Positions 7,502 to 59,134 of a DNA stretch of 64,000 nucleotides are shown in pieces (within the stretch, counting starts at the first letter, position 1; each line of letters begins with the position of its first letter). Under the pieces are notes generated by a model, which saw only the letters and a program-made list of their open reading frames with translations, did not search any database and was not told the origin of the DNA. This DNA comes from Pempheris klunzingeri (lineage: Eukaryota > Chordata > Actinopteri > Acropomatiformes > Pempheridae): positions 12,476,501-12,540,500 of the forward strand of contig NC_092016.1 of NCBI RefSeq assembly GCF_042242105.1, in the 5' to 3' direction. The position numbers and the translations under genes were made by a program.

Positions 7502-23973
<16,472 letters not shown>

Positions 23974-39665: not shown

Positions 39666-42600
39666 GCCAACTCATTCATTACAATATTCCGTAATAACAA
39701 CACCTTTTGCTAAACTTAAGGGTTAATTAGAACTTCAACGGGCACAATCCCTGTTACACCATATTAACACAAGTTGTACAGTACATTAATGTACAGCCAA
39801 TGCAGGATTGGTGTCTTCAGGGGCAGTGCTATCATGATACATATTATTAAAAAATACTGCTATTATATTGCAATTAAAGCAGTGACATTTGCACATATGT
39901 GGTGAGAGTCCATGTAGCTTTGCGGTGTAGCAGAGCATTATCTTGTTTAAGGAGGGTAGTTAAATTTGGTTAAATGTGTCAAGCAGCATGTAATTTAGTG
40001 ACTTATGTGTTAAACAGGTTTGTTTTGGTCTCAGCGTCTGGATTCATTAACCTGAGCCGTAAGCGCGAGATAAAAAAAAACGACTTACTAGTGCACTCAG
40101 AGATCCATTCCCACTTTTAGAAATCAAACATCAGCCATTATGATTGAATTCTGAAGCCAACGCATGCCTTTAAAGTGCTGTTAGATGCTAGCTTAAGGAA
40201 AAGTGTCTGTGTTCAATATTAATGGGAAAGGCCCAAAATTCTCTCTTGAAAAATATTTTATTCAAAAGAAGAGTGCGCCTTAATGGCCAATGTCACTTTT
40301 TTCATGTTGATTTAAAAAAAAAAAGTGTTCATCACGTTAAGGATGAACACAGGCTGCGTTTGTGGGGGTGTTTGCTTGACTGACAAGTGCCTCAGCCTTT
40401 CACAGTCGGCCACAGCAGTTGCCGCTTCCCCGTCTCACCACAGCCCCCACAGGTTTCCCAATCTTGGCTCAAACTAGGATTTTCTGGCTCCAGTAACTTA
40501 CAAAACAGGCTAAAGTTCTGTTATCCAAACATCCTTTCAAAAACCTACAGGTCTGTGGGTCCCTTCAGACTATAGTTACAAGCCACGTAGGATCTGTTAT
40601 ATATATATACACCTCTTCAGTGATCCAGACATAAAAAAAAACGACAAATGTAAGACACAAGCTAGCCTTGCAAACACTGTCAAATCTAGATCCACTAGGA
40701 AAAAAAAGGCCATAAATCATGGTTAAATGTTTTTGCAGTCAACTTATTACAGCACATCTGTGGTTTGAAGCCTTTACCACAGCATGAAAGGGAATACTGG
40801 TGTGAGGATTTATTACAGCTTTATTGCACATGGCTTACGACTTAATTTGACGGTGATTCCGAGGTACATTTCATAATGTCACATATCCACAAACAGATTT
40901 AAGAATGGGGTTTGCTCACTGGGAGACACATTTCCCCATAAGGATCTATGCAACATCATGGCGTCAGCATACAGGCTCACACAGGCACACAAAGTAGTGA
41001 CCCCCTTCCCTCCTCCCCTGTTTTGCTGTGTGAGTGGAGCCCCTCTGCCTGCCTCCATGGCCTCTAGCTGACCTCCCTCCGCCTGCAGACGGAACACCTA
41101 ACATTGCTTCCCCACCTGTAGAGATGGCTGGAGAGAACAGGGCCCACTTCAAAGCATGCAGTGATTGGGCCATGATTACCGTGGGCTCTTGACTCATTTC
41201 ATCTCCTCTGAAGGTCTTAACTCTGGAGGAATCGGGCATGGAGACATGGGATTTATTTTGCAAGGAAACAGGAGATTTAAGCCCCCTTTGCAGATGCTTT
41301 TCGGGGTCCACAAGATGATTTATTTGGCTCATTCTTTTAGATCCTTGACTAATGATACCAGCGGAAAAATACACCATTGCTGCTGGGTCCCCTGGTGCAA
41401 AACATGTATCAATGTAAATGTGAGACGTTATCTTAATACTGCAACCTGTGTTTTTTTTTAGCTTATGATGATAACTTTTGCTGCTCAGGGTTTTGAAGTA
41501 GGTGGGGGCAATTGGCACAGATGTTTGCAAAGGAATGTCATTTTGTATCAGTTGAGAGGCAGTTTGATAAAGCGGCAGTGCCACAGTGACATGAAAGCCC
41601 AACTGGGTTCAACAACAACCGTCATCTCTGCTCTGCTTTTCTGTAGCTAAATGCCAGTGACAGGAACAGAATTCACTGTGGTAACTGATCAGGTGCCAAG
41701 CGCCCTCTCCCCAGTGCCCTGCTGCACTGAAGCCCTCTGTGGAGCTGGCATGGCCTGGCTTGCCCTGGCAGCCATGGGCCCTGCTTTGTATCTCTGCCCC
41801 GACCATTCAAGCTGTCTCCAAATCAGACTCGACTGCTGTCAGCTGCCCGTCTCCCAAGCTGGTGTTAAGCATTTGGACGGGGGCAATAGGTGGCTAAATA
41901 AGTTATTCAGTTGAGACAGCAAACAAGTTGATTTGATGTAAATCATCATCTTCCAAATGACCAGGAAGGAAACCGTGGTGAGTTTATTCCACTAGTGTTG
42001 CACCTAGCTCAAATAAAAACTGCTTGGATTAAAGATAGATTGAAGATATTATGTAGGTCTTTGTCAGCGGACATGATTATGGTTTTAAAATACCATAGCA
42101 ATGAATTAGTGAGCTCACCATCTTTACAAGGCAGTCGTAGTTGGTAGATATTGTGAACCAGGCCAACAATAAAAGAAACGTATATGAGCACCAGGATTAA
42201 ACCAGGCAGTGGCATTTGCAGTTATTGTATGGCTTCCTATATTTTAAGATGAGCAGATAGTGAAACTGCTGTGATTTATTGCATGAAACCTATAGCAGTT
42301 GTGTATTTCATCACCATCTACATGTTAAGCCATCTGGCCCATAAAAAAAAAACACACTGTGATAATTGATATTCCAGGTCTGTAAAAAAGAATCACAGCC
42401 TTCAAGGCTTCAAAACCTCAATAAGGCAATTTGTTTGAGGATAAGCCACCATCACAAAATATGCCCAGCTGTCTCAGATATTATATTGCTACTGTATGTT
42501 CCTACATCACAAAGGTCTGTGACTAAGCATGCAGATTCAACACCACATCCATGTTTACAGACGTCTCATCCCAAACCGTCGAGGAGATTTGTGGCCTCGA

Positions 42601-42801
42601 TGCATTTGCCTTCGACCTAAATTTTATAAAAAGGTATTCGCACGGAACCTGAAGTTGAATGCATCGAGGCACGTACTCGCATAAAGGCAGGTGCACCTGT
42701 CTGCAGTGGTAGCCTATTGTGTTAACTATCAAATGAGCCATGAATCGGCCTGTCGCGCTGTATGTGGGTGGGTGGGAAACAAAAACATGTCTGACTCTTA
42801 C

Positions 42802-43198
42802 CGTTCTGTTTTCAGTCATTACTCCCCATCCTAAGGTTTTCGGTCCAGACCTCTGACGATCCGTTAATTCCTATCAGGCTGCCTCACTCTCTCCCTCTCC
42901 CTCGCTCATCCCCATGTCATGTTTCTCCGCTGCAGCAGAACAAAGCCACGCCTCCTCCGACTGACGCGTGACGTCAGCCGGCGACGATGACGCCCTCGGT
43001 TACACATCCCGGAAGTAGCCGCGAGAGGCCGCTGTGTCTCAACAAAAACAAACCACTTCAACTCGGTTTTAAACCAAATCTCAGGAATAAATAGCGTCCA
43101 GCAGCGTAGGGCTTCATCAAAACGACAACAATGATACGTTAGAAAGAAAACAAATGCTCGGGTTGAATGTATCACAGTGTTTTAAACCGCAAAGAACG
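42802..43198. promoter_or_regulatory. CpG-rich, apparently bidirectional promoter
   Basis: A compact GC/CpG-rich block in otherwise AT-rich DNA carries a full palindromic CRE (TGACGTCA, 42969-42976) and an ETS-type CCGGAAGT (43009-43016). Donor-like sites point both ways: plus-strand AACG|GTAAGAC with the exon ending at 43198, and minus-strand AACG|GTAAGAG with the exon ending at 42802. The plus exon would be the first exon of the cysteine-rich gene; the minus exon would be a non-coding first exon of otud7a or another minus transcript. Confidence 0.6.
43154..43198 (+). other. Candidate first exon 3' end of the cysteine-rich gene
   Basis: The exon ends at 43198 with donor GTAAGA and joins the acceptor at 44021-44022. 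An ATG at 43154 reads in frame through the junction (15 codons, then 7 more) into the signal-peptide ATG at 44044. It has a poor context (C at -3 and +4), whereas ATG 44044 has G at -3, so 44044 is preferred. A leader start would add 22 residues. An earlier ATG near 43131 opens a three-codon uORF. Confidence 0.5.
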
Positions 43199-44022
43199 GT
43201 AAGACTGTTAAAACTAGCTTAATTTAAGCTAACAGAAATCAATTATTCTTCCATAAAGCAATATAGTCCGAGAAAAGTTGCTCACAAAACCAGTAAAAGT
43301 AGCTTATGAATTGTTTTCTTCTTTCTTTTCAAATTAAAGTGTCCCCTTTAGCTTTAAAAAACACAAAACTTAATCTGTAAGCCATCATCAGTCCACTTAA
43401 TGCATTTTAGCTGGGCTAGCTATAACTTAATTAAACCTAGTGTTAGCTAACGTCAAATCTTTCATCATGCAGTTGAAGCCTGTGGCGTATGACGGTCACC
43501 CATTTTATATTTAGTTTATATAAATCCACACCATAGATAGGCTATCTAAATAATCCGGTTTTGACTTTTGGCTGCATTATATAACATCATCCTAGTGACA
43601 GACTTAGACATTTCAGTACCTACCAGTAAATTGTAGCCACAGGTGTGTCTTTACAAAGGTATTTTGTTTTGTCAGGGGTTGTCAGAACCGGAACCTTGTT
43701 TGTAATTAGCAGGCTAAACACTGTGCAAACAGACAAACACTCCATTGCATTAATATGAATTGTGGGAAATGTGTGTACTATAAGGCTACCGATCTATTGT
43801 GACACAGAAAGTGGGTTGTTCTGTCTTTTTCCTCTCATTTGCTAAATCCTGACCGCAGTCCACGCTCATTGTCCGGTGCTTCACATGATCAAACTGGTCC
43901 AGCAAGTTATTTCTGAGCTGGTGTCACAGACCTCCATATCGATCTGCCAGCGGACCTGCTGCACGGACACTGCGTCTTTGAAGACAATCCTGAGTGTTTG
44001 CTGTTTTTCTTCTCACTTGCAG

Positions 44023-44221
44023 TGGAAGTCCTCGGGCTCAGCCATGAGGTGCTTGGCCGCTTTTCTGATCTTTCTCTCCGGTGTCGGATTTATTGGATGC
44101 AAACCCTCGTCGTCCTGTCCCAGTGGACAGTTTATGCTGAAGAACCAGTGTGTTCTCTGTCATCCCACCTGCTTTGAGTGCGACGGACATGAGCTGTTTG
44201 AATGCACTACCTGTGGAGTTG
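44023..44221 (+). CDS. Cysteine-rich gene, signal-peptide exon (residues 1-60)
   Basis: The acceptor at 44021-44022 follows a T/C-rich tract. 21 bases of leader precede ATG 44044. Encodes the signal peptide and the first repeat core CVLCHPTCFEC. Donor GTAAGC, phase 1. Confidence 0.85.
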
Positions 44222-47200
44222 GTAAGCACATTTTTTTTTCCTATGCACGTACTTTGAACACAGGATAAAACCACGGGTGACTAATCCAAAAGAAAAAGGG
44301 CGAATTATATAAGTATTAAATATTTAATTTTCGTCACACTGCGATGCATTAGATTCACCCAAAGAGGGGTTTTTAAGGGCAATGCTTGTATACCTTAGTT
44401 TCTGCAAGGACCAAGGAAAAAAATAAATAATCACCAGCTAAACAAACGATTAATTCAAATGAGCATTTCTATTACTGTCTGGATAAAGTGTGAAAATGTG
44501 AACACTAAATTGCTTGTCATTGGCCGACATGAGTCCTCTGTTTTGAGCATTTTTTTTTTTCTTGGCTCCACAGATGCTTGAATAAAACAAAGCCATGTCA
44601 CAGACTCATTAATCCAACTGAAAGGGAGGTGGAGTTTTTTGTCAGAGCTGCACAATTTAATGGTTACCAAAGCCAAAGTTCTTTTAAAGGCTTTTGAATT
44701 AAGGGAGGTGCACTCAGCTCTGGTTTACCATTTACTCTTGTTAAACAGTCAGAGATTGGCTGTAGAACTTGAGATTTCTCTGTCACAGGGGCACTTTGAA
44801 ATGGGCAAGAAATGAAGGTGTGATCATTTTTCTCCCAAGTTTTCACTCGATGTAATCTGATCATGTCAGAATGGGGCCTTTGTTAATCAGAGGGAGAGGA
44901 AAAAATATCCCCTTGGGCTAGAAGTGTTACTGTTGCAGTTCACTGGGCTTAACCTGCAAAACCTGCACTTCTCTCTTCCTCTTTCCCTCTCACACACACA
45001 CACCCCCCCTTTTGGAATACATGCATTTTGACGTTGCTACGATCATGCACTTGTTTTTACTAACTGTGTGCCCCATGTGTTTTTTGCTGTTTTTGCTTGA
45101 CTGATTTTTGTTTATTCCATTTGTATATCTGTGTGATGCTCTTTGTGAAAGAACATCAAATGCCAAAAGCCTCACTCCTTACTCTGTGGTTTGTCGTCAT
45201 ATAGGGGCCACATTTCTCTGTGCATGCTGAGGTTAAGGGTAGTAGAGGGGTGAGAGGGGCTGCAGCAGCTTGTTGCCTCTCTCCTCCCTGTCTCACACAT
45301 CTTCTGTGCAGCGCTGAGCAGATGAGACAATGCTGTAACTCAGCTGCTTCCAGAAATGCCTCCGGTGCCACAGCTAGGCTAGTGGCAGGTGGCAGAGTAT
45401 TAATCATTTTGGGCCAACACAGGACTCTGTCTCTGCCCACGGCTCTGATCTCTGATTGCCTTTGTTTACATAAGTTGGAGCATCATCAGTCAGGAAGTGA
45501 TCTCACACTGTGATCTGTTCGTTGCAGGCTTACAGTCAGCATGCTGGGCTGCAGCCATCAGTTCATGATGTTGTTCATGGCTTTAACATCTGTTTGCTCT
45601 GCCATTATTTTCTTTGTCAATAAAGCATGCATAATGAAATGCTTGCCACTGATTCACTTATTAAGCTCCACGAAATTTCTTTCCTATCAATAAAACGGTC
45701 TCTCTGTTATATGTATTAATACTCATCATCGTCATTTGCTGACGGCTCTGAACTCTCACACAGTTGTCAGCATGTCTTTTCCTCTACCCTTCATCCCATG
45801 TAATCGTCAGGTCCATTTGGCTCTACCTCTGCATTTATTATGTGGAGCTCATTGATTTTCACTTTCAGAAGAGTCCAGATTTTTGGAAAAGGCGTTTCCT
45901 GGCAGGAGTTCCATATGGCTAATGGCATCTTTATTACAGGATAAACTAGCGGAGGCTTTATATTAACAAGTCCTCTGTGTCCTCCTTCTCCTCCTCCTCC
46001 TCCTCCTCCTCCTCAGATGAAGATGGACAGGAACGTTTCCTTCACCAAGGTCGCTGTCGGATACACTGCCCCCGGGGACTCTATCCTGACAGGGGTCACT
46101 ATACCTGCCTGTCCTGCATAGCTAATTGTGAACTCTGCACAGACGGCAACATATGTGCCAAATGTCGGGAACACTACAAACTCCAGAATGGGGTCTGCCA
46201 AACAGCGTCCTGTGACATAGGTAAATGTAAAGCAGAATTTCTGAGTTGGCTGTAGGCTAACAGAAAGGTATTTGGGCTTGTTATGCTGGGTCTCTGTGTC
46301 TCAGGGCAGGTGCAGGACCCTGATACAGGAGAGTGCATTGACTGTGAGATGGGCTGCAAAACATGTTCTGTGGGTAAGTGAAACCCTTACTGGATCAGCA
46401 TTCACCATCCTGCTCTCTCTCCAATGTAAGGAGGATCTGTGATGTTTGTTAAAACAATAATGCACAGCGGAGCACACACACATGCAGCCATGTAGCCAAG
46501 AGTTGTAGCCACATGAATTCTAATTAATCACCTTTTCTCATTTGTACACAGAAGACCCTGAGATCTGCAACAGCTGTGTTGAAGGTTATGTTTTGTGAGT
46601 TTTTTTTCCCCCTCATTTTATTATTGTCTTGATGAGATGACTTTTCTGGCTTCCCATGTCCTCTGCTATAAAATCAAGCGCATTCTCAAGTATAATTTGA
46701 AAAACCTAAATTTAACACCAAGGCTGCAACTAACAATTACTTTCAATGAATGTAACTGTTATATTCTCAAATAATTGAGAAGTTACTAGAAAAACTAGTA
46801 AAGAAGTTGACATTCTTAAACTGTATTTTGTGTAACACTCCAAAACCCTGATATTTAGTTTACAATCATAAAACTGTGAATAATTGTGCTTGAGAAGTCG
46901 GAATCATTGTTTGTTTTTTTGGCATTTTTTGCTTGGAAAATGGCAAAGGTAATCAGTCAATCAACAATGAATACAGTGAAATGTCTTTTTTCAGAAGTTT
47001 TAATTCATGGACGTTTAAGATTCTGCCAAGAAATAATTAACCTCAAAATGACCTTGTGGTGGTTTTTATTTGTCTTACCATTGTCTTGCAAGATTGAGAG
47101 TTAGGTAAATCAATATGCAGTATGCAGGGTAATGTACTTTTCCATATATTGGCTTATAGAATTTTTTTAAATTATTGTCCATACCACGAGAAACTTCATT

Positions 47201-50200
47201 TCACCTGTATTTCAGTTTACACCGGTGCATCACTTGGACCCAGTGTGTAACACAAGTTACAGAGCAAGAACAGGCCTCCAATTGTGTACCCCCCCACTCC
47301 CCCCGAGTTTAGGCCTCCAGGTATTGTGTGAATCAGGTTACCTTCCATTCCGAGTCATATGCTGTTATCTGAGCCTTGGTTTGAGCACAGGAGAGCGGTC
47401 TGCTTCACAGAGATACTTAACAAAGTGTGTTTTTATGTTATGTGTGAGATGGAGGGGAGAGGAGAGAGAAAGAGAGCAAGTATAAGTGGAAAGCATAGCC
47501 AGTAGCAGGTGTGATTATATAGGGTACACCATCTTGACTTTACTGACTGCTCGTCTGAATCACAGCAGAGGAGGGTTGAAGGAAAATCCACCGCCTCACT
47601 GCACTCCCCTCCTGTTACTGCTGTTACATAGGTACAGCGAGATACTCGGTCTTCTCTGACTTTTACTTTATTAGTAATGGTTTCAGAGATTTAAAATGAC
47701 AGATGGTCTCGGTAATATCTGTGGCCGCTGTACTTTGCCTTGCGAGGAAAACACCAATAAAAGAAGCCCAATAGAGCATGGGGTGATCATGAAATGCAGG
47801 AAGAGCCTCACTGCGATAAACTGTGACAGATTCCAGCACTTAATACCACTATTAATGTTTTGAGGGTAGTAATGGCAAATGTTTAAGTTGGGCAGCTTTT
47901 GCTCAACTGTGTGGAGTCAATGTTATTCTCTCATATAACAGTGAGTATTACAAAGACTTTCAGCATGATGGATGCTTGGTATTTATTGACATTTTCCTTC
48001 CTCTCTAAGGAAGCAAGTGCAGCTGAACCAAAAGAATATTGAGATTCACTCTTAATATGGTCTATATAGTTTATTTACTTAAGCCTTCTTAACTTTAGGG
48101 ACTACTTACAGCATATTTTCAGCTTTTCTTAACTAATTCAGGGGGTAAAAACCCTAAACAAAAGTTGCTTTGGAAATGCTAATGCGCCCTCCTGGAATGG
48201 ATAGTCTAATATTTGCTCTGAGGGATTTTTAAACATCCCACAGATTCTTAAGTAGAATACTGTTTCCAGGCCAGAGACAGGGCCTGGTCTGCACCAGCTG
48301 CTATTGTGAGTGAGTTGATGGATGCAGTGTGGCGCCTCCAGCTGTTCCTTCTCAAACAACCACTGCATCTTAGCACCAAATCCACGGCAACGCAGTAGGA
48401 AGTTCAGCTTGGGCTGTCAGTGATCGGATTCTCTCATGTAGGGAGGTGGAAGAGGAGGCAACAGAGGATGTTATACTATAAAAGCTAATGGCTTAAATTC
48501 CTATTTAGCTCGTTTCATTTAGAGTGGTAAGTCTGTAAAGTAGGTGTCATTCTTGCTTTAGTGTTTTATGTGTGACATATATTGCAACTTCTGAGCTCCT
48601 TTAGGGTAGTTTTATTTTAATTTTTTTTTTTTTTTTAGGACAGCCGTCTCATGTTTAATAGCTCAGTTAGGCCCCAAAGGACTGATAGGATAGGTTAATG
48701 ACAGAAATCTCCCCATGCCTCTGGGCTACAAATAAAACACCAATTAACTTTCTGCCTTAAGAAGAGAATAGAACCATGATAAGCTTGAAGAAAAGCAGCC
48801 TACATTATGTTGTTGTCTCTGTTTGCCGTCCTTACTGACGTTTGATTGAGCGCGCCCGTTGGCCGAGGGCTCTATTGAAGTCAACAATACAGCGGCAGGT
48901 GTGCTGTGGAGTGACAAAGTGCATGTTGGGATTGCGTCTTGCATGTGGTGTGTTTTGTCTTTCCTCTGGTTTTGGTTCATCCATATGGGCCAAAGGCTGC
49001 CTGCAGCAGCTTCATTCTTCATTCACTATAAATCTTTGAAAGTTCCATTAAACCACAATAGTTTTCCTCAGGCCTTTGATATTTCAATAGCTTTGTTCTG
49101 CATGTTTGTGTTTAAAAAAATAAAAAAAATAGGCTCCTTTTATGCAATAGCTGTGACGGACAGTTTTAGTTCACCATTTAATTTTAGGATTGAATTAACC
49201 TTTTCTTTTACAGTTTCAGACGCCAGTGTCGCAGGCATTGCCCCCAGAGCACCTATGAGGACTGGGGCAGGGGTTTGTGTCTGTCCTGTCCATCACCATG
49301 CACTGATTGCAGGAGCAACACACACTGCCTTTCCTGCCAGTCTGATTACTTCCTCAATGGTACCAGTAGCAAATAATTATCATTTCTGTGTATATTTTGC
49401 TTGCTATTAGCATACTAAAGGATTCAGGCGACCCTTTCGTCCTATACAGTTCTAGCAGAAAATGTATTTAATATACTCATAAATCACTGTGTGTCAGAGT
49501 AATCAATCATTCTTGTTAAAGACTAGTGATGGCACTCTTGAGTCATCATTTGGATTGCAAATCATGTTCGTGTCAGCAAATCTGTAACATGAGATATGCA
49601 AATGTTTGGTTTATGCAAACCAGCAATTGGGATAGTGTTGTTAGGTTGTGTTCTCTATAGACATCTCTGTTAAAGCTTTGAGATTGTAAATAAAGCCTGT
49701 AGCTACTAAAAAAAGAAGATTAGCAAGAACACCACAGCACTATCAAAGATTATTTAACATGTACGGGTTCATATTTTATGGACTTGTGCTTGTACATTGT
49801 GCCAGACAGCATCTATCACGGATGATCAGCTTATTCTCTCTTCAGCCACAAGGTCCCGTTTCAAAAGATCTAGGTCATTGTTTTGTGCTTGGGCATGTGG
49901 ATGGAATTTGGAGAGGGAGAGATGGTGGAGAAGGATTTAAACAGTTGTGGAACACATGAAGAGATCTTTTCTGAGACCATATCAGAGCAACCTAAAAGGA
50001 ACAGATTGTGCTGATGCTAATGCATCGTGTTTTTCAAATTAAATGTACTTTTTGGCATTTTGCGATTCAAATCATTTATGTTTAAGCAACAGATAGTGAT
50101 CAGGGAATTCTGGAACAGATAACCTGGCTTTCAGTGAAACATCTCCAAAATAAGAACGGGTTAAAAAGTACAGTGAGGTAGTAATGTCATTTCCTCTGTG

Positions 50201-53200
50201 TACTGCTCTGTCCTATCAGGAGGCGAGTGTGTCAAACAGTGCCCACAGCAAACCTTCAGTGACTCCAGTGGATGGCGCTGCCAGCCTTGTCACAGTTCAT
50301 GCCAGACGTGTCACGGACCTCATTCAACAGACTGTGACCTTTGCCTTGGTGGGAACCCTCCTCTACATGGGCAGTGCCCCCTGGTTAACTGCCCACTGGG
50401 ACAGTTCTATGACGGTAAGAGTAACAATGTTAATCTCATTTTCTCCGTTTTTTTTTTTTCTTTAGAGATATGTAGCTTTGTAGGATTGTGAGTCCTATTT
50501 GATTTACTATAAAACAAGAACTGAATGGCTGGCTGTGGAGTCAGATTATTCCCAATAACATGACACTTGGCTGGTTGATTCCCTGATGGAAGTAATTGCT
50601 TTTCTCATATGGGAGGTCAGTGCAGAGGTCAGTACAGTGTCCCTGGAAGCTAGAGGGATTCACTGTCCTCCTCAAGGACACTTACACATGGTGGGCTGCT
50701 TGCCACTGAGACGGGGCTTGAACCCTGCTGAAGGATCGCTAGGTTGAAGGACGGGCCCCCCTCTCACTGTGTCACCCTGCTGCACATACACCGCGTCACC
50801 TCTCGTTCAAGAGCACTTTTTTTAGTCGAACACTTTTAAAAGGCTCCTCTGCCTCAAGCACGGGGCTCTTCACCAGCTTCCCCTTTGGTGTCTGTGTCAA
50901 CAGTGTTGGAATACAGTACTCCATTATCTTCAGGCATACAGGGTAATCAGGCTGATCATTTATATTTCTGCCTCAGTGGTTTGATTATTTACATCCTTGT
51001 TTAGATCAGCCTGTTCATTGTCACTTAGTCCATTTTTAGTCATTTTCTAAACTGCCCATTGCTGACCATTGTGACAAAAATACATTTTCAATTGATTTTG
51101 TAACCTTGTACATTGTTTCACTGCAAGAATATCTGAGTTTTACACTTTTACACTTGAAATTTCTATGTCAGTAACAGGTAGCTTTAGCTATACATATGTT
51201 TAAATATAAATAGCTTACATGCCATGATGGTGACTTCCACTTCCAAGTTGCTGTAACAATAGTCCAAGATGTTAGACACTGTACAGATTCCTATAATAAC
51301 AAGTGGTAAGTTGCAGGTGTCATATACACGAACTTACTGAAAACACAATGCAGCCTCCACTGCACTCTGCCAGTGTTGAGCAATCAGTGGCACCAAGCAC
51401 TTTATGACTTGCTCACAGCTTATTGTGCTTCCCTCTAGCGGTGAAGGTAGGTCAAACAGAGAGTTCTCCAGTCAGCATTCAGTTTTAACAAGACTCTGTT
51501 TTTTTTTCCCCAATGTGACGATCTGTTATAGTATGAGATAAGGTTACTCTGTTTATCGTTTTAATTTCAGGGAAATACAGTGAATGTCACGCATGTGATG
51601 CATCCTGTAAGACCTGCTTTGGCCCACAAGCGCTGGATTGTTCTTCATGTTTCAAAGGTATAAATGTTTTCTTTTTTCAGTCATGGCAAAAAAATGTAAA
51701 CATTATCCCAATGAGCATTGTGTTTTATGGGTTTTTGTTTTCACAGGATATTTCCTGGATCAAGACAGTTCTTGTGTAGTGCAGTGTCCGTCCGGCTCCT
51801 ACGCAAACTCTGCGACTCAGTTATGTGAGGACTGCTCGCCAAACTGTGAGGCCTGCATGGACACCAGTGATAACTGCATCAGCTGTTCCAAAGGCAGCTA
51901 TAAACTTTTTCTCCACCAGGGGCGGTGCTGGTCAAATTGCCCGGAGTAAGCAGCTGCATAAACTAAGCAATACAACAAAGTACAAAGTACTATATATGGT
52001 GTTGTTTTTGGGGATTTTGCTCTTTAGGCTTTATCAACTGTCTCCTGACTTTACTTTCAGAGGTTTCTTTGAAGTAGCGGAGGGGTCATGTGAAGCCTGT
52101 GATAGCTCCTGTCTGACATGTGATGGGATCAAGTCCCAGTGTCTGTCCTGTGCTGATGGCCACTACTTAGAGAGTGGTATGTGCAGACTCAACTGTTCAC
52201 TGCGAACATATCCTGCAGATGATGGTACCTGCAGACGCTGTCCTCCCCACTGCGATGTTTGCTCAGACGACAGGACCTGTTTCAGTGAGTTATTAGCTGT
52301 GTGTGCAACTGAGCTTTACATGGAAAGATATTCCAAGTGGATGATATTGTGTCATGAAGTCCTTAAGTCTCTTAAAACTTAACCAATCCTCTTCTGTATT
52401 ATTTCAGAATGCAGTTTCCTCTACTTGATGCTGAACGGTGTGTGTAAGGCTAGTTGTCCCATGGGCTATTATGAAGACATGGAGGAGGGTCGCTGTGGTC
52501 AGTGCCACCCCACCTGTGGCAGCTGTTCAGGGCCCCTGGCAGATGACTGTGAGACCTGCTCGACATTTAGCCCCAAACTCTATAAGGGGACATGCTCCAA
52601 AGACTGCCCCAGTGGTACTTACTATGAAACTGAAGCTATGGAATGTCAAGGTTAGCCTCTCAATACTCTTTTTTTTTTTAAGCATTGTTTCTGACCATGT
52701 ACGCTGTCTGACACTGTCTTTTAAATCTTAAATCAGGTCCCATTGTTCATGCACAGAGGCATCTCACCCATGGAAACTAAATTTAAAATAGTAAATGTAT
52801 CGCCTTTCAAGATATAGAATGTGGTTTCCATGGCTTGTAAAACTAAACATTAGGATGAGGAATTGTAAGCACAGTTCAGACCCTGGATAGTGGGATTGGA
52901 AAGGTGCAGGTGGCTTAACAGATAAAAAGTAATAAAATGATAAAGTAGTAGAAAGAGAAATGTCTTGATATAAACTTTATCTGATAAGTCTTACAAGGGA
53001 CCCACAATGACATTTTTCAAGCCCGTGTCTAGAACCACAACAGTGTCACTGCCGTGTATTGTCTCATAGGTTTAGTGATGATGAATTGCAGTAGTATGAC
53101 ATTCCAGTGATGTAGTCTGATTTCTCTGACTATGTGCAGAGTGCCACCAGACTTGTATGAGCTGCTCCGGCCCAGACGCAAACCAGTGCACGCAGTGCGA

Positions 53201-56200
53201 GAGAGGACTCGTGCTTGATCCCAACACACTGTTGTGTGGTGTCACAGGTGACACAGACTGCCCACCCAGGACCTACCTGCACGATGACCAGTTCACTTGC
53301 ATGGGTTGCCATCGGCACTGTTACTCTTGTGAGGGCCCGGGCAGCGATGAATGCCAGACCTGTGCCGTCCCCAAATACCTTCAGAGTGAGCATTTTCCAC
53401 GGATATTCGACTGCACACACTGATGCGGTTCAGGGTGTAAAAAACAAAACTCAGCAGCAAAGCAGGTTTTTACAAAGTGCATTTATTATGCAACCATATA
53501 ACGAAGTGAAATCATGTATCTCCTGACCATCAGCTCTTCAGGGACTCAATACCAGTCTTATTTTTAACTCTGACTAATTTAATTTGAGCCTTTACAGAGA
53601 TTTTTGTCAGCTTGTCTCAGCTTTGCAGTTGATGCCCCCAGTACACATTAAAAATTGGCTTCATAATGATGGTTCTTCTGAGAGCATTTAACAGATAGAA
53701 GCAACATGAATTTCTATACTGAAGTGGAAGCACTGAAAGGAGTTAAAAAGCCAGTCAAAGCTGAAGAATTAAAACAAGTTGAAGATTTACTACCTGTGTG
53801 ATATTAGTGCCATTGTCATTAGCAACAAACAGGCATGTTGGCCCAGCGGGGTGTGAACCAGAGACCTTTTTCAATCTTCTCTTTAACCAGCACTGAATGA
53901 GACCCTGATAGGTCGCTTCTGATAACTTAAAGACTCCAAAACAAAACTCCTGTGGGTTCATTTTTGTTACAGTTTTAGAAGAAGAAGACTAATGGGAACA
54001 TTTTGAATATATAATTTGTGATATTGTGATATTTTTGCTTAACCACAGTATCTTTCTGTGTTCTTGACATAATCCAGTCTAGCCTCCAGTCTAAAGATGG
54101 ACTAGTTAGTAGGGAATCTTTGGCAATCCCACAATTGAAAAGGATTCCGTGTTTTCCAGGTATTTATTTAAGTTAACTGTATCAACTTTGAAGGTAAGAT
54201 GCTTCAAAGTTGATACAGTTAACTTAACTTAGTCCTCTTCCTGTATGAAAATAGTGAAACGAAAGTAGTTTTATCGACCAACATCACTGATTAAATGTTT
54301 TTTTTTGTAAAAACAGAACAGGTGTTCTGGAGTAAAAGGGAAAAGAGAAAAAGCAAAATGCTTCACTGTGTTTGCAGAGGAAAACTTAACGTTGGTATCA
54401 AACATGGGCTTTTTTAAAGCTGAACTACATGAATACAAAAGTATGTGTGTGATGCACACTTTCAGGGTGTGATGTCCCCTCACCTCCCACCTTTTTCATT
54501 CTGTCAGCACAACTTTCTTAACCAGCTAACTAATGAATCTTTGGCATTTGTGAATTGATTCAGAATCATAGAGGATTAAAAAGTGCGATTCTTATGTGAA
54601 CTGATATTTGTTCACCCACTAGTCGGGTGCCAAAAAGTGTCCAGATGAACAGGAAAGAAAAACTAAATCAAAATGAAAAAAAGAGTACATGAGTGGGTAG
54701 TAATAAATTGAGAATGGAGCTTTTTGTCCTGTGTGCCTTTTTCCAGACAGCACCTGTGTGAGCGACTGTCCGGCTGGTACATACAGCACAAGGCAGGAGG
54801 CTGACGGCACAGAGCTGGGATTCTGTTTGCCTTGTGACCACGCCTGTTCCACCTGCTCCGGAGCATTGCCTAGGGATTGCCTCACGTGCTCTCCAGGATT
54901 CCTGCGTCTCCTTCACCTCTGCATCACCCATTGTCCCACAGGGTACAAAGCTGGGGCTCCACCATAATCTCAGAAACATTTACTTAGCATTGAAACACGA
55001 CCTCTATTGAGTCCACTTTGCTCGTTTCCTGGAGATGAGCCAAACTTTCCCTGAAAACTTTTATTTTCAGTTCCATTTTTGACAGCACTTGACTTTTTTT
55101 TTTTTTTTTTATGTATTGTTATTAATATTTTTTTTATTTTGATTTGATTATGTCTACCAATAGAGTTGTGGCTTCAGCCCATTGTTAAGATTTTGGTGGT
55201 GATTTGGGTTTGTTTTTTTTACCATTGACTGATAATGACCATTTTTCACTTAGTTCTTACCACAGGTAGAACTTACATCCGTGAGAATGAAAAATCTATG
55301 TACGGCTGACTTGTAAATAATGATTATTTCATGCATCTTTTTTCAGGTATTACAGAGAGGGCTCCCAATGTGAGAAATGTGACCAGTCCTGTGAGCTGTG
55401 TACAGGACCAGGGCCCGAGTCCTGCAGGGCCTGTCTCCCTCCTCTTCTGGAACTGCAAGGCACCAAGCTGTGTGTCGAGCGCTGCCCACACCGCTTCTAT
55501 CTGCTGGCTGATGTGTGCAAACAGTGTCACACAAGCTGTCAGACCTGCACAGGTACGCATGAAGGAGCTGTTAAGTAAAGCTCTGTAGTCAATGTTTTTT
55601 TTTTTTACTTGCGTAAGAAGTCGGACCGTGTGTATGCATATGTGTTTGCAGATGCCTCGCCTCAGGGGTGTGTGACGTGCGACTGGGGCAGCACTCTAAA
55701 GGATAATGTTTGCTATCCGCGTTGTGAGGAGGGGCGATACTTTTCAGAAGAGGTTTGCTCTTAGTTATGAGTCATGTCACATATTGCTTTGATTATTTAT
55801 TTATTTACCCAATATGTAATAGCAAAAGATCAGTATTTCTTTTGTATTGTCATCCAAAGCAAAGGGTAAAGCTGTTCAATTTAAATCATTAGATTAGTGC
55901 ACCAGGACACATCATAAGAGTGTTATATTCATTAACGAGATGCTGCTGATGTCCATTTCAAATTCTTAATCACACTTACATAAGTGAATAACTAAAGGCC
56001 CTGACAACATTTTTTCGTATCTAAGTATGGGCGATGTCCACTTTAGCACAAATAGCTTTGGTTATTTCTGTGTTTGTGTTGTTTGTGGGCTCCTCATACT
56101 GGTTTAGGTTCAGCTGATTCAGCTGTTGTTTGCTTGTGTTGCCAGGCCACTGTTTATTAGGATGAAGTGAGTGTCAGGTTAATTATAACTATATTCTCCA

Positions 56201-57099
56201 AACTTGGTGCTTGGTTTATAATGAATATTTGATGCTGTAAATAAATACTTAAAATGAAGTTGTGTTTTTTTTAACCTTATGTAGCATTTTTCTTCAACAA
56301 GCAACAGAAAGTACAGACAGAAACTTAGTGTAACTCAGATTTGTCCAAACAAGGTTTCATTCTCTTTTCCAAATATCGTAACATTACCAACTAGCAACTG
56401 ACATGTTTTTCTTTTATTTACCCAGTGCAGTAATTTGTGAAATTGTGCCATCGTAGGAAACTTGTGAACCGTGCGACAGCTCATGTCGGCATTGCACCGG
56501 GCCCAGACCTGAACAGTGTCTGACTTGTCACCGGGATTCTGCTCTTCATGCTGTGGAGAACCGCTGCGCCCGCTGCTGTCAGGCCGGTGGGAATGACACC
56601 GATTGCTGTGTGTGTGACAGCCGCTCAGGTAGAGACCCTGTCTGCCTATCATAAGTCATCATAAACACAGGATTGTTCAGATACGATCATCTATTAAAGG
56701 CAGCTTTCTGTTCTAGCTCTGTGTGTGGAGGTCCCCCAACCCAAGGCAGGAGACGATCAGGTAGCAGACCTGAATATGTCCACTAGAGCTCTGAAGCACA
56801 CCTCAGCCGCGTTGCCTATTGCCCTGCTGCTAGCACTGGGGTTGGCCCTGGCTGTGTTCGCTTTGGTCAAGGCCCATGCCAGGAAGAGGCTTTGCTGGAG
56901 CCAGAGTTATGAGAGACTGAGTGGCAGCGGCAGCATCAACATGCCCCACGGGGTGCCCGAGCCAGACAGCGGAGACGAGGTGGATGTGGTGTACACCAGC
57001 AGAGGTGGATCAGTATATCGGCGCTACAGCTTCATCCACGAGCAGGACGCAGATGCAGACCAGGATGTGGACGAGAGCACTTGTCTCAATCATTCCTAG
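44044..57099 (+). CDS. PCSK5-like furin-repeat type I membrane protein without protease domain, 16 coding exons
   Basis: Coding exons: 44044-44221, 46017-46220, 46305-46373, 46552-46594, 49220-49359, 50220-50414, 51571-51657, 51747-51945, 52061-52284, 52408-52650, 53140-53385, 54747-54942, 55347-55552, 55652-55752, 56457-56628, 56717-57099. All are GT-AG, phases agree, and the joined frame is open: 2,886 bp, 961 residues. It begins with a signal peptide (MRCLAAFLIFLSGVGFIGC). I count 16 C-x2-C-x3-C-x2-C cores of furin-like repeats over about residues 30-830, then a sequon (NMS, 854), one membrane helix (about 864-885) and a 76-residue tail. The tail has YERL (899-902) and two acidic clusters. 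This layout matches the C-terminal half of PCSK5 isoform B, but no propeptide, subtilase or P domain is present. Eleven of 15 introns are phase 1, as in shuffled extracellular modules. Expected at the cell surface or trans-Golgi/endosomes. Function unknown; I do not recognise a named orthologue. Confidence 0.85.
46017..46220 (+). CDS. Cysteine-rich gene exon, residues 60-128
   Basis: The acceptor is preceded by a pure (TCC/CTC)n run at 45981-46014 that forms the whole polypyrimidine tract. Core motif CLSCIANCELC; phase 1 on both sides. Confidence 0.85.
46305..46373 (+). CDS. Cysteine-rich gene exon, residues 128-151
   Basis: Small 69-bp symmetrical exon with core CIDCEMGCKTC. Acceptor TCTCAG, donor GTAAGT. 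Confidence 0.85.
46552..46594 (+). CDS. Cysteine-rich gene micro-exon, residues 151-165
   Basis: Only 43 bp, encoding EDPEICNSCVEGYVL, the end of a repeat. Acceptor TACACAG, donor GTGAGT; phase changes from 1 to 2. A 2.6-kb intron follows. Confidence 0.75.
49220..49359 (+). CDS. Cysteine-rich gene exon, residues 165-212
   Basis: Two AGs lie 6 bp apart (TTACAG and TTTCAG). Only the second, giving RQCRRHCPQSTYEDW, keeps frame with the upstream exon. Core motif CLSCPSPCTDC. Donor GTACCA. Confidence 0.85.
50220..50414 (+). CDS. Cysteine-rich gene exon, residues 212-277
   Basis: Encodes GECVKQCPQQTFSDSSGWRC and the core CQPCHSSCQTC. Symmetrical phase 1 exon; acceptor CTATCAG, donor GTAAGA. Confidence 0.88.
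50628..50785 (-). mobile_element. Degenerate tRNA-type SINE
   Basis: On the minus strand there is a B-box-like GGTTCAAGCCCC (50724-50713) and, further on, GTGTCCTTGAGGAGGACAGT, which echoes the GTCCTTGAGCAAGACACTGA tail of teleost tRNA-SINEs. The A box is not clear. Located in an intron of the cysteine-rich gene, opposite orientation. Confidence 0.45.
51571..51657 (+). CDS. Cysteine-rich gene exon, residues 277-306
   Basis: 87-bp symmetrical exon with core CHACDASCKTC. Acceptor ATTTCAG, donor GTATAA; only 89 bp separate it from the next exon. Confidence 0.88.
51747..51945 (+). CDS. Cysteine-rich gene exon, residues 306-372
   Basis: Encodes GYFLDQDSSCVVQCPSGSYA and core CEDCSPNCEAC. Ends phase 2 at a GTAAGC donor; reading past it meets a stop at once, which supports the splice. 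Confidence 0.88.
52061..52284 (+). CDS. Cysteine-rich gene exon, residues 372-447
   Basis: Two cores, CEACDSSCLTC and CRRCPPHCDVC. Acceptor CTTTCAG, donor GTGAGT. Confidence 0.9.
52408..52650 (+). CDS. Cysteine-rich gene exon, residues 447-528
   Basis: Core CGQCHPTCGSC followed by the linker CSKDCPSGTYYETEA. Acceptor ATTTCAG, donor GTTAGC, phase 1. Confidence 0.9.
53140..53385 (+). CDS. Cysteine-rich gene exon, residues 528-610
   Basis: The core CQECHQTCMSC is split over the upstream junction; a second core is CMGCHRHCYSC. Acceptor TGTGCAG, donor GTGAGC. Confidence 0.9.
53780..53900 (-). mobile_element. Possible degraded tRNA-like repeat
   Basis: On the minus strand CTCTGGTTCACACCCCGCTG resembles a B box with flanking stem, but A box and tail cannot be placed. 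Confidence 0.2.
54169..54226. repeat. Perfect 25-bp inverted repeat (hairpin) in an intron
   Basis: Arms 54169-54193 and 54202-54226 are exactly complementary over 25 bp and enclose an 8-base loop. It sits in the 1.36-kb intron of the cysteine-rich gene between the exons ending at 53385 and starting at 54747. Origin could be a foldback element, a palindromic duplication or a small-RNA hairpin. Confidence 0.95.
54747..54942 (+). CDS. Cysteine-rich gene exon, residues 610-675
   Basis: Encodes NSTCVSDCPAGTYSTRQE and core CLPCDHACSTC, ending CPTG at a GTACAA donor; the next exon supplies YYREGSQCEKC. NST is a potential glycosylation sequon. Confidence 0.9.
55347..55552 (+). CDS. Cysteine-rich gene exon, residues 675-744
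   Basis: Cores CEKCDQSCELC and CKQCHTSCQTC with CVERCPHRFYLLADV between. Acceptor TTTTTTCAG, donor GTACGC. Confidence 0.9.
55652..55752 (+). CDS. Cysteine-rich gene exon, residues 744-777
   Basis: Encodes DASPQGCVTCDWGSTLKD and CYPRCEEGRYFSEE. The only phase 0 boundary of the gene is its 3' end (donor GTTTGC). Confidence 0.87.
56457..56628 (+). CDS. Cysteine-rich gene exon, last repeat, residues 778-835
   Basis: Core CEPCDSSCRHC, then an unusual terminal cluster CARCCQAGGNDTDCCVCD with paired cysteines and an NDT sequon, which differs from the other repeats. Confidence 0.9.
56717..57099 (+). CDS. Cysteine-rich gene, membrane and cytoplasmic exon, residues 835-961
   Basis: Stalk, helix LPIALLLALGLALAVFALV, positive stop-transfer KAHARKR, then a tail with YERL, DSGDEVDVVY, SVYRRYSF and an acid-rich EQDADADQDVDE near the C-terminus. 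Stop TAG at 57097-57099. Confidence 0.92.
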
Positions 57100-57364: not shown

Positions 57365-57370
57365 AATAAA
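57365..57370 (+). terminator. Poly(A) signal of the cysteine-rich gene
   Basis: AATAAA 266 bp after the stop codon, giving a short 3' UTR that ends near 57,390. Confidence 0.75.
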
Positions 57371-57841: not shown

Positions 57842-59134
57842 ATGGCTCTTGTAAGGCTGAAGGCGAAGTGTCAAATGTTGTTGAGGACCCTCTCTCTCAT
57901 CCTTGTGGGTATGTTCCTCTCTGTTTTCCTTTGGGGAAACTGGCTCCAGTCATTGTCTGGCCTTAGGATACCACAGCAGTTCTCTGCTGACCTGCCGGGC
58001 TGCGTGGCCATCATCAGTGGAGACATGGAGGGCAAGAAAAACGAAGTAGAAGTGCTTCTGGCATCCAGGAAAAGACTGAATTTGTTGTCTGAAGACTTCT
58101 ATCTCAACATTACAAAAGACTGCCCAGCGTACATTGAAAAGAGAGGCTTCATCACAGCACCTCTCAGTAAAGAGGAGAATGATTTTCCTATCGCCTACTC
58201 CATGGTGATCCATGAGAAGATTGAGATGTTTGAGCGACTTCTTCGTGCCGTTTACGCTCCTCAGAACATCTACTGTGTGCATGTGGACCAGAAATCCTCT
58301 AAACAGTTTCAGGAAGCTGTGAGGGCAATTGTCTCCTGCTTTTCTAATGTTTTTGTAGCCAGTAGATTGGAAGGAGTGATATATACCTCATGGTCCAGGG
58401 TGCAGGCGGATTTGAACTGCATGAAAGATCTGCTGAGCTCATCCGTCCAGTGGAGGTACTTGCTTAACACCTGCGGGACAGATTTCCCCATCAAAACCAA
58501 CAGAGAGATAGTTGAGGCGCTGAAGGCTCTCAGGGGGAGAAACAGCATGGAGTCTGAGACCACCAGTGACCACAAGAAAAGCCGTTGGCAGTATCATTAC
58601 TATGTCACGGACACTGTCGTCATGACCGATGTGAGGAAAAGTCCTCCACCCATTAGCAGCCCCATGTTCTCAGGAAATGCTTACTTTGTGGTCACAAGAG
58701 CCTTTGTGAAACATGTGATGCAGGACAGAGAGGTTCAGGAACTTCTGGAGTGGGAGAAGGACACATACAGCCCTGATGAGCACCTGTGGGCCACTCTGCA
58801 GAGGATGCCCTCTGTTCCCGGATCAGTGCCTGCTCACATCAAGTACGATTCGTCAGATATGCAAGCCCGCGCTCGCGTGGTGAAGTGGAGTTTTTTAGCA
58901 GGAGATATGAAAAACGGGGCCCCTTACTATCCTTGCACTGGGTCTTACAGAAGAGCAGTTTGTGTGTACGGAGCTGGCGACCTCAAGTGGCTCCTGGGAC
59001 GCCACCACCTGCTCGCAAATAAGTTTGATCCTGGGGTTGATGATGTCGCCATTCGATGTTTGGAGTCTGTTCTGCGTTTTAAGGCTTTAGGCCATGACCC
59101 ACTGTCCACAGATCAATATTCCACTTTTTTGTAA
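57842..59134 (+). CDS. gcnt3: Core 2 beta-1,6-N-acetylglucosaminyltransferase, GCNT3-like
   Basis: Golgi type II membrane enzyme of glycosyltransferase family 14, which adds GlcNAc in beta-1,6 linkage to mucin-type O-glycans (core 2, and core 4 for GCNT3). Single-exon ORF, 430 residues, close to human GCNT3 (438). The first ATG in a good context is at 57842 (G at -3 and +4); the frame is open slightly upstream but without an ATG. A signal anchor spans about residues 13-31. A sequon NIT (89-91) precedes a conserved Cys. Family blocks present: [58 protein letters not shown] (with the acidic catalytic candidate in PDEHLW), [16 protein letters not shown] and [12 protein letters not shown]. Several positions also fit GCNT1, so the choice of GCNT3 rests on the N-terminal half, GAPYxPC context and linkage to bnip2. 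Confidence 0.9.

Follow-up and report, generated by a model that had tools for sequence, protein, structure and literature searches.

The 64,000-nt stretch of the Pempheris klunzingeri genome analysed here (hereafter the window; contig 5, C5:12476501-12540500, in the 646-Mb assembly of the same fish) carries on its plus strand, at positions 44044-57099, a gene which by identity and descent is very probably a free-standing C-terminal half of a PCSK5/6-family convertase gene. It is so assigned because of the anatomy of the predicted protein, the lack of any protease part in the searches described below, the homology of its exons and tail to those of pcsk5, and its position next to gcnt3.

Gene structure and predicted protein

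The gene comprises 16 coding exons and 15 introns, all 15 with GT-AG borders, and its reading frame of 2886 nt including the stop codon, derived by hand and checked with a script, codes for a protein of 961 residues. The exons are as follows:

44044..44221, plus strand: coding exon 1, carrying repeat 1 and, judged by hydropathy, the signal peptide; probable true exon start 44023
46017..46220, plus strand: exon 2, repeats (hand model and exon finder)
46305..46373, plus strand: exon 3, 69 nt, length equal in both pcsk5 genes (model and finder)
46552..46594, plus strand: exon 4, 43 nt, length equal in contig-19 pcsk5 (model and finder)
49220..49359, plus strand: exon 5 (hand model and exon finder)
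50220..50414, plus strand: exon 6 (hand model and exon finder)
51571..51657, plus strand: exon 7 (hand model and exon finder)
51747..51945, plus strand: exon 8, 199 nt, length equal in contig-19 pcsk5 (model and finder)
52061..52284, plus strand: exon 9 (hand model and exon finder)
52408..52650, plus strand: exon 10, 243 nt, length equal in both pcsk5 genes (model and finder)
53140..53385, plus strand: exon 11 (hand model and exon finder)
54747..54942, plus strand: exon 12 (hand model and exon finder)
55347..55552, plus strand: exon 13 (hand model and exon finder)
55652..55752, plus strand: exon 14, 101 nt, length equal in contig-19 pcsk5 (model and finder)
56457..56628, plus strand: exon 15, last repeat (hand model; the finder gave the 3' part alone)
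56717..57099, plus strand: exon 16, stalk, membrane helix 866-885 and 76-residue tail (model; tail alignment to pcsk5)

The exon finder, a dynamic-programming procedure with splice-site and residue scores trained on the window gene itself, recovered 13 of the 16 exons exactly and, of exons 1 and 15, the 3' parts; as it has no donor, exon 16 was beyond its reach. A six-frame scan of the 64 kb gave 16 furin-repeat cores of the form C-x2-C-x3-C-x2-C, all on the plus strand and all inside the gene, and the two other frames of the spliced message contain 21 and 65 stops and no core. There are eight cysteines in each of repeats 1-15 and 12 from the 16th core onward. Third-position GC of the gene is 58%, against a GC content of 38%-50% across 2-kb sections of the window.

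The protein has just two strongly hydrophobic stretches, one at the N-terminus, which is called a signal peptide on the basis of hydropathy, and a helix at residues 866-885, followed by a 76-residue tail containing YERL 13 residues past the helix, YSFI, a serine in an acidic SGDE run, a VVYTSRGGSVYR box and an acidic end. The preliminary description of this stretch, made from the sequence alone, had put forward an open 961-residue, 16-exon model with the same ends, 16 repeat cores, a signal peptide, a membrane anchor and an acidic tail, all of which reappear here; the coding part of that model stands, but it is probably not complete, as a 5' exon upstream of the acceptor at 44022 was likely missed.

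The protein is matched by the Pfam profiles GF_recep_IV (80.6 bits, cut-off 29.5) and Furin-like_2 (47.3 bits, cut-off 28). A CD1107-like match was discarded as lying under its own cut-off, and a match to the Giardia VSP profile (56.4 bits) was attributed to shared CxxC repeats, the window protein ending in CLNHS and not in the CRGKA tail, which we take to be the VSP hallmark. Searching the PDB returned weak matches only, to 11 R-spondin sequences and one EGF receptor, and no match for the tail. R-spondins and the cysteine-rich domains of the EGF receptor resemble the window protein in their furin-like or GF-receptor repeats, whereas the window protein has 16 repeats in one array and, according to Pfam, no thrombospondin or kinase domain; an R-spondin identity was rejected, the thrombospondin type-1 domain that follows two furin repeats in those proteins being absent from the Pfam result. 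Furin possesses two repeats of the same core and a type I anchor with a tyrosine and acidic-cluster tail; unlike furin, the window protein is without a protease and its repeat array is eight times longer. No relatives of the protein were confirmed in viral contigs. A short inverted repeat, ATCAACTTTGAAG...CTTCAAAGTTGAT, was seen by eye in intron 11 around 54168-54226.

Search for a protease part and homology to pcsk5

When the catalytic and P domains of human furin were used as a tblastn query, no match under E 0.9 was obtained in the 64-kb window, and in a control 118 of 120 planted exon-size catalytic pieces were recovered (30-50% substitution, E up to 1, shuffled DNA). There was no P-domain match under E 2 in the window, the planted control covering catalytic pieces alone, and PCSK5A and PCSK6 as queries gave no P-domain match there at E 0.01. 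The single furin match below E 1 (14 residues, minus strand, 2196-2237, E 0.92) was rejected, since by eye its flanks are not subtilase-like. A Pfam scan of stop-masked plus-strand frames over nine upstream stretches (501-44999, three frames) gave no subtilase and one sub-threshold DUF match; it is not counted here, because a control stretch with exons 1 and 13 of the gene was also unmatched, and it was replaced by tblastn. Elsewhere in the window, no relic of a pcsk5/6 repeat exon scored better than E 1.5.

In the whole genome, the furin query found convertase loci on contigs 1 (two), 2, 4, 5, 7, 8, 12 and 19, to which the Peptidase_S8 profile added contig 1 (11.4 Mb), contig 6 and a weak stop-containing match on contig 5 at 23.9 Mb, both searches having scored the best candidates only. 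The nearest furin-type locus on contig 5 lies on the minus strand at 17.24-17.27 Mb, 4.7 Mb from the window gene, with no subtilase closer among the matches listed; in the same search, the catalytic and P-domain exons end 0.9-6.3 kb before each pcsk5 repeat array. Neither the window nor the genome searches gave the window gene a subtilase catalytic domain with Asp-His-Ser.

A genome search with the 961-residue protein gave its own gene and, mainly on contigs 7, 19 and 1, repeat arrays that match less well, and no second copy of the gene was seen. The genome contains a pcsk6 and two full pcsk5 genes with protease, repeats and tail. The pcsk5 gene on contig 7 (plus strand) has its catalytic and P-domain exons at 5522738-5543904, 18 cores in 5550160-5580221 and the tail near 5581134; the one on contig 19 (minus strand) has them at 16057796-16050209, with 19 cores to 16036892 and the tail near 16035183. 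Judged by the human proteins, the former is PCSK5 (710 bits versus 689 for PCSK6) and the latter slightly nearer to PCSK5 than to PCSK6 (560 versus 557 bits, 56% versus 53% identity). The protease half of contig-19 pcsk5 is far more diverged (56% to human PCSK5A versus 76% for contig 7), and within this gene (16057796-16035183) some furin matches hold stops, perhaps due to intron read-through.

To the two pcsk5 loci the exon finder was applied with the scores of the window gene, lengths and phases being left free. Starting from the 137-nt exon of pcsk5, with which repeat 1 of the window gene aligns, all 15 intron phases of contig-19 pcsk5 (1,1,1,2,1,1,1,2,1,1,1,2,1,0,1) equal those of the window gene, a string equalled by 47 of 200,000 shuffles; on contig 7 the first 12 phases agree, after which the finder skipped an exon. 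Exons 2-15 of the window gene measure 204, 69, 43, 140, 195, 87, 199, 224, 243, 246, 196, 206, 101 and 172 nt, and their contig-19 counterparts 201, 69, 43, 143, 201, 84, 199, 215, 243, 237, 178, 221, 101 and 208 nt. Five of the 14 lengths are identical, the summed difference is 102 (minimum in 200,000 shuffles, 150), and once the register is shifted, the mean difference grows from 7 nt to 65-72 nt. Local alignment of the tail scores 74 with contig 7 and 62 with contig 19, values above the highest obtained from 2000 shuffles each, 56 and 60, and both pcsk5 tails carry IVYMGQDGTVYRKF.

Over 775 gap-free columns, the contig-7 row of which includes a finder error near the end, the two pcsk5 arrays share 50.2% identity, and the window gene is 35.2% and 35.9% identical to them; the pcsk5 copies were nearer to each other than to the window gene in 1000 of 1000 column bootstraps. 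Given similar rates, the window gene would predate the separation of the two fish pcsk5 copies. In summary, it resembles the C-terminal half of PC5B (PC6B) in exon order, phases, several exon lengths, cysteine core and membrane helix, as well as in the acidic region and the VVY/IVY...VYR box of its tail, and differs from it in that the first repeats are absent, as are the pro-, catalytic and P domains, in having its own signal peptide and promoter-like region, and in an identity of 35-36%. The preliminary description had claimed a protease-less, PCSK5-like, membrane-anchored protein with no subtilase or P-domain sequence in the window; this agrees with the searches above, and the link to PCSK5B, now including shared exons, phases and a homologous tail, is stronger than was claimed.

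Neighbourhood, origin and rival explanations

Besides the exons, the following features were placed in the window:

7502..23940, minus strand: otud7a, head to head with the window gene (zf-A20; 11 matching stretches to human OTUD7A)
42601..43200, no strand assigned: CpG-rich promoter-like region, perhaps bidirectional, serving the otud7a side and the window gene (CpG density, motifs, donors)
43009..43198, plus strand: inferred 5' exon with arbitrary start (donor 43199, acceptor 44022)
57365..57370, plus strand: AATAAA polyadenylation signal (sequence motif)
57842..59134, plus strand: gcnt3-type core-2/I-branching transferase, open in one exon (Pfam Branch, 2.3e-61; PDB 2gak)

The gcnt3-type protein is 60% identical to human GCNT3 and 56% to GCNT1, and bnip2, recognised by a match to the human protein, follows it beyond the window, so that the order is otud7a, window gene, gcnt3, bnip2. 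On contig 7 the order is pcsk5, rfk (minus strand) and a gcnt1-type gene (plus strand). Because the window gene precedes gcnt3 as contig-7 pcsk5 precedes gcnt1, it occupies the PCSK5-equivalent slot of a duplicated block, which in birds holds neighbours of PCSK6 too, since TARSL2 and TM2D3 flank human PCSK6. The contig-7 gcnt1-type gene (C7:5592890-5594849) matches in three pieces, and the window gcnt3 is a single exon. In excerpts of published work, Pcsk5, Rfk, Gcnt1 and Prune2 are likewise neighbours in mouse (PMC11018349), a human 9q21 deletion list includes PCSK5, RFK, GCNT1 and PRUNE2 as well as TRPM6 (PMC10218196), and an interval of chicken chromosome 10 comprises BNIP2, GTF2A2, GCNT3, OTUD7A, KLF13, TRPM1, TARSL2 and TM2D3 (PMC11050503), to which the otud7a, gcnt3 and bnip2 setting of the window gene corresponds. 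The chicken list, as excerpted, names no repeat gene, though unnamed genes may be omitted from it (PMC11050503).

The gene probably goes back to a PCSK5/6 copy that arose when the genome of an early vertebrate was duplicated. In this copy the PC5B-specific exons coding for furin-like repeats, membrane helix and sorting tail would have been kept, the first repeats would have disappeared together with the pro-, catalytic and P domains, and a promoter and a signal peptide of its own were apparently gained. This suggests that the docking arm of the enzyme became a separate protein.

Several points weigh against this assignment. The contig-19 tail score of 62 barely exceeds that of the best shuffle, 60, and the last exon, when searched against the entire genome, brought up neither pcsk5 tail within a limit of E 10, so the tail homology is visible in direct comparison only. 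Taken one by one, the repeats do not match those of pcsk5 in the right order, which is expected of old repeats that are about 22% identical outside the cysteines; their register is set by the global alignment and the exon structure. The finder behind the pcsk5 exon models had been trained on the window gene, and it missed a near-end exon on contig 7 and placed a doubtful 40-nt exon before the contig-19 tail. The identity of 35% could partly reflect fast evolution, inflating the apparent age. Also, neither the window nor the 10 kb beyond it yielded gtf2a2, a member of the chicken block, the human neighbour order is partly presumed, and the gene is known here from the genomic sequence of one fish.

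The transcription unit bears on the alternatives. CpG density is highest in the window at 42.6-43.2 kb (28 per 400 bp, mean 6.5), a region with TGACGTCA at 42969 and CCGGAAGT at 43009, presumably CRE and ETS motifs, respectively. A donor, GTAAGA, stands at 43199 on the edge of this peak and is the sole plus-strand GTRAGW in 42401-44000; the splice acceptor ending at 44022 has 85% pyrimidines. Because of this donor and acceptor, an upstream 5' exon probably exists, and the transcript probably begins ahead of the first coding exon. If spliced in, the ATG at 43154 would keep the frame and add 22 residues; the ATG at 44044 directly precedes the signal-like stretch. CpG peak, donor, acceptor and polyadenylation signal would frame one transcription unit. 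Near-identical donors, AGAACG/GTAAGA, bracket the CpG peak on both strands, at 43199 (plus) and 42801 (minus). Possibly the peak is a bidirectional promoter, with the minus-strand exon being the 5' end of otud7a or an antisense RNA.

A later copy of the 3' half of a fish pcsk5, inserted beside gcnt3 with capture of a promoter, would fit both the PC5B type of the window exons and the failure to find a protease relic in the window. Such an origin is unlikely, as the window gene is equally far from both pcsk5 copies (35-36%), which share 50% with each other, and precedes a gcnt gene like the pcsk5 of contig 7, an arrangement that random insertion would not yield. Much less probable still is a decaying relic, open by chance or recently dying: the lack of a second copy in the genome search speaks for it, but GT-AG borders at 15 of 15 introns, eight cysteines in each of repeats 1-15 and the absence of any stop or frameshift amount to an intactness hard to keep over an age exceeding the pcsk5 copy split.

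The least probable explanation of all, which we find very hard to credit, is a long convertase gene with protease exons beyond the window. The acceptor at 44022, through which the frame is open, does imply a likely upstream exon, but the CpG peak with its donor lies only 0.8-1.4 kb upstream, the hydrophobic signal comes straight after the ATG, otud7a intervenes on the opposite strand, and the matches listed for contig 5 include no subtilase within 4.7 Mb.

Possible relation to PCSK6, proposed role and significance

The locus at 28.44-28.457 Mb of contig 1 is pcsk6 by comparison with human PCSK6 and PCSK5 (658 versus 612 bits over the catalytic and P domains; 77% versus 47% for its end exon, which we take to be of the PLAC type). 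In this genome it consists of a front part, namely protease, P domain, a short repeat region and the PLAC-type end. The 30 kb examined at this locus contain no B-type tail box, and the window gene found no match in them beyond pcsk6's own repeats, except one at E 0.9. The window gene starts at the exon that follows one 103-nt exon in pcsk5 (on contig 7 the finder placed an additional, doubtful 112-nt exon before it), and in the DNA examined pcsk6 and the window gene do not overlap and together make up nearly all of a pcsk5 minus about one exon. PCSK6 (PACE4) and the window protein are thus of the same family and complementary, the former being, unlike the latter, a secreted enzyme with a short repeat region, encoded on contig 1. 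Frames of a transposase, presumably Tc1/mariner-like, were seen by eye on either side of pcsk6 (L028 659-1279, L030 4243-4914).

Tentatively, the window gene could be the severed back half of PCSK6, a possibility that we entertain and do not favour. The ancestral PCSK5/6 gene would have had a long membrane-bound form, and its copy on a 15q-like chromosome would have split, the front half becoming secreted PACE4 and the back half staying beside GCNT3, where it would have gained a promoter and a signal peptide; the independent back-half gene would have survived in this fish, and tetrapods may have lost it. Even now, PACE4 might join its former tail to form a two-piece membrane convertase. Loss of opposite halves by two different ancestral copies would, however, look the same as a split of PCSK6. 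Counter to a split, pcsk6 is on contig 1, with snrpa1 0.5 Mb and tm2d3 5.9 Mb away, and otud7a and gcnt3 are on contig 5, with no second otud7a copy on contig 1 (the other otud7a match, on contig 8, is taken as otud7b). Since they lie on separate contigs, this genome alone does not join pcsk6 to the window locus; furin-type loci are present on both contigs. Nor does the excerpted chicken GCNT3/OTUD7A interval list PCSK6 (PMC11050503). A cichlid survey, as excerpted, reports no PCSK6 match (PMC4992253), and an excerpt of another paper describes PCSK6 as conserved from fish to primates (PMC9656567). The same excerpt on cichlids mentions a PCSK-like gene without furin repeats, said to be perhaps incomplete or an assembly error (PMC4992253), and this gene might represent the converse situation, a convertase lacking its repeat arm.

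Returning to the separated C-terminal half, whatever its exact source, we see about an even chance that its product is a non-enzymatic scaffold or receptor cycling between the surface, the endosome and the trans-Golgi. As a type I membrane protein, it would bind extracellular or luminal partners through its repeat array without cutting them, and the tail, with its YxxPhi motif, acidic cluster with a CK2-type serine and VVY-VYR box, would drive the cycling. PC5B itself is described as membrane-bound in trans-Golgi vesicles, and a title cited in the same excerpt credits two acidic clusters of its tail with sorting (PMC9296861). Binding of heparan sulphate, which the preliminary description mentions for the repeat array of PCSK5B, did not find support: the ectodomain has 62 K+R against 110 D+E, its most basic 30-mer reaches a charge of +4, and a consensus heparin motif was not seen in it. 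Such binding is unlikely from the charge; in PCSK6, a cationic segment, 734-760, lies in the cysteine-rich domain according to an excerpt of PMC9656567. Binding of TIMPs or substrates is possible, and a role as a decoy for convertase partners would be a guess.

Both the repeat type and the PC5B half are already known, and the new element would be a free-standing gene made from that half; no description of a protease-less PCSK5-like gene was found in the literature searched, which comprised openly accessible papers. Fish gene databases probably already list the gene with a PCSK5-like name, a label which may wrongly imply an enzyme. A gene of this kind would be a natural separation of the docking and sorting arm of a convertase from its enzyme, isolating the action of the PC5B array and tail, and would offer a concrete reason why PACE4 is without the membrane arm of PC5B.

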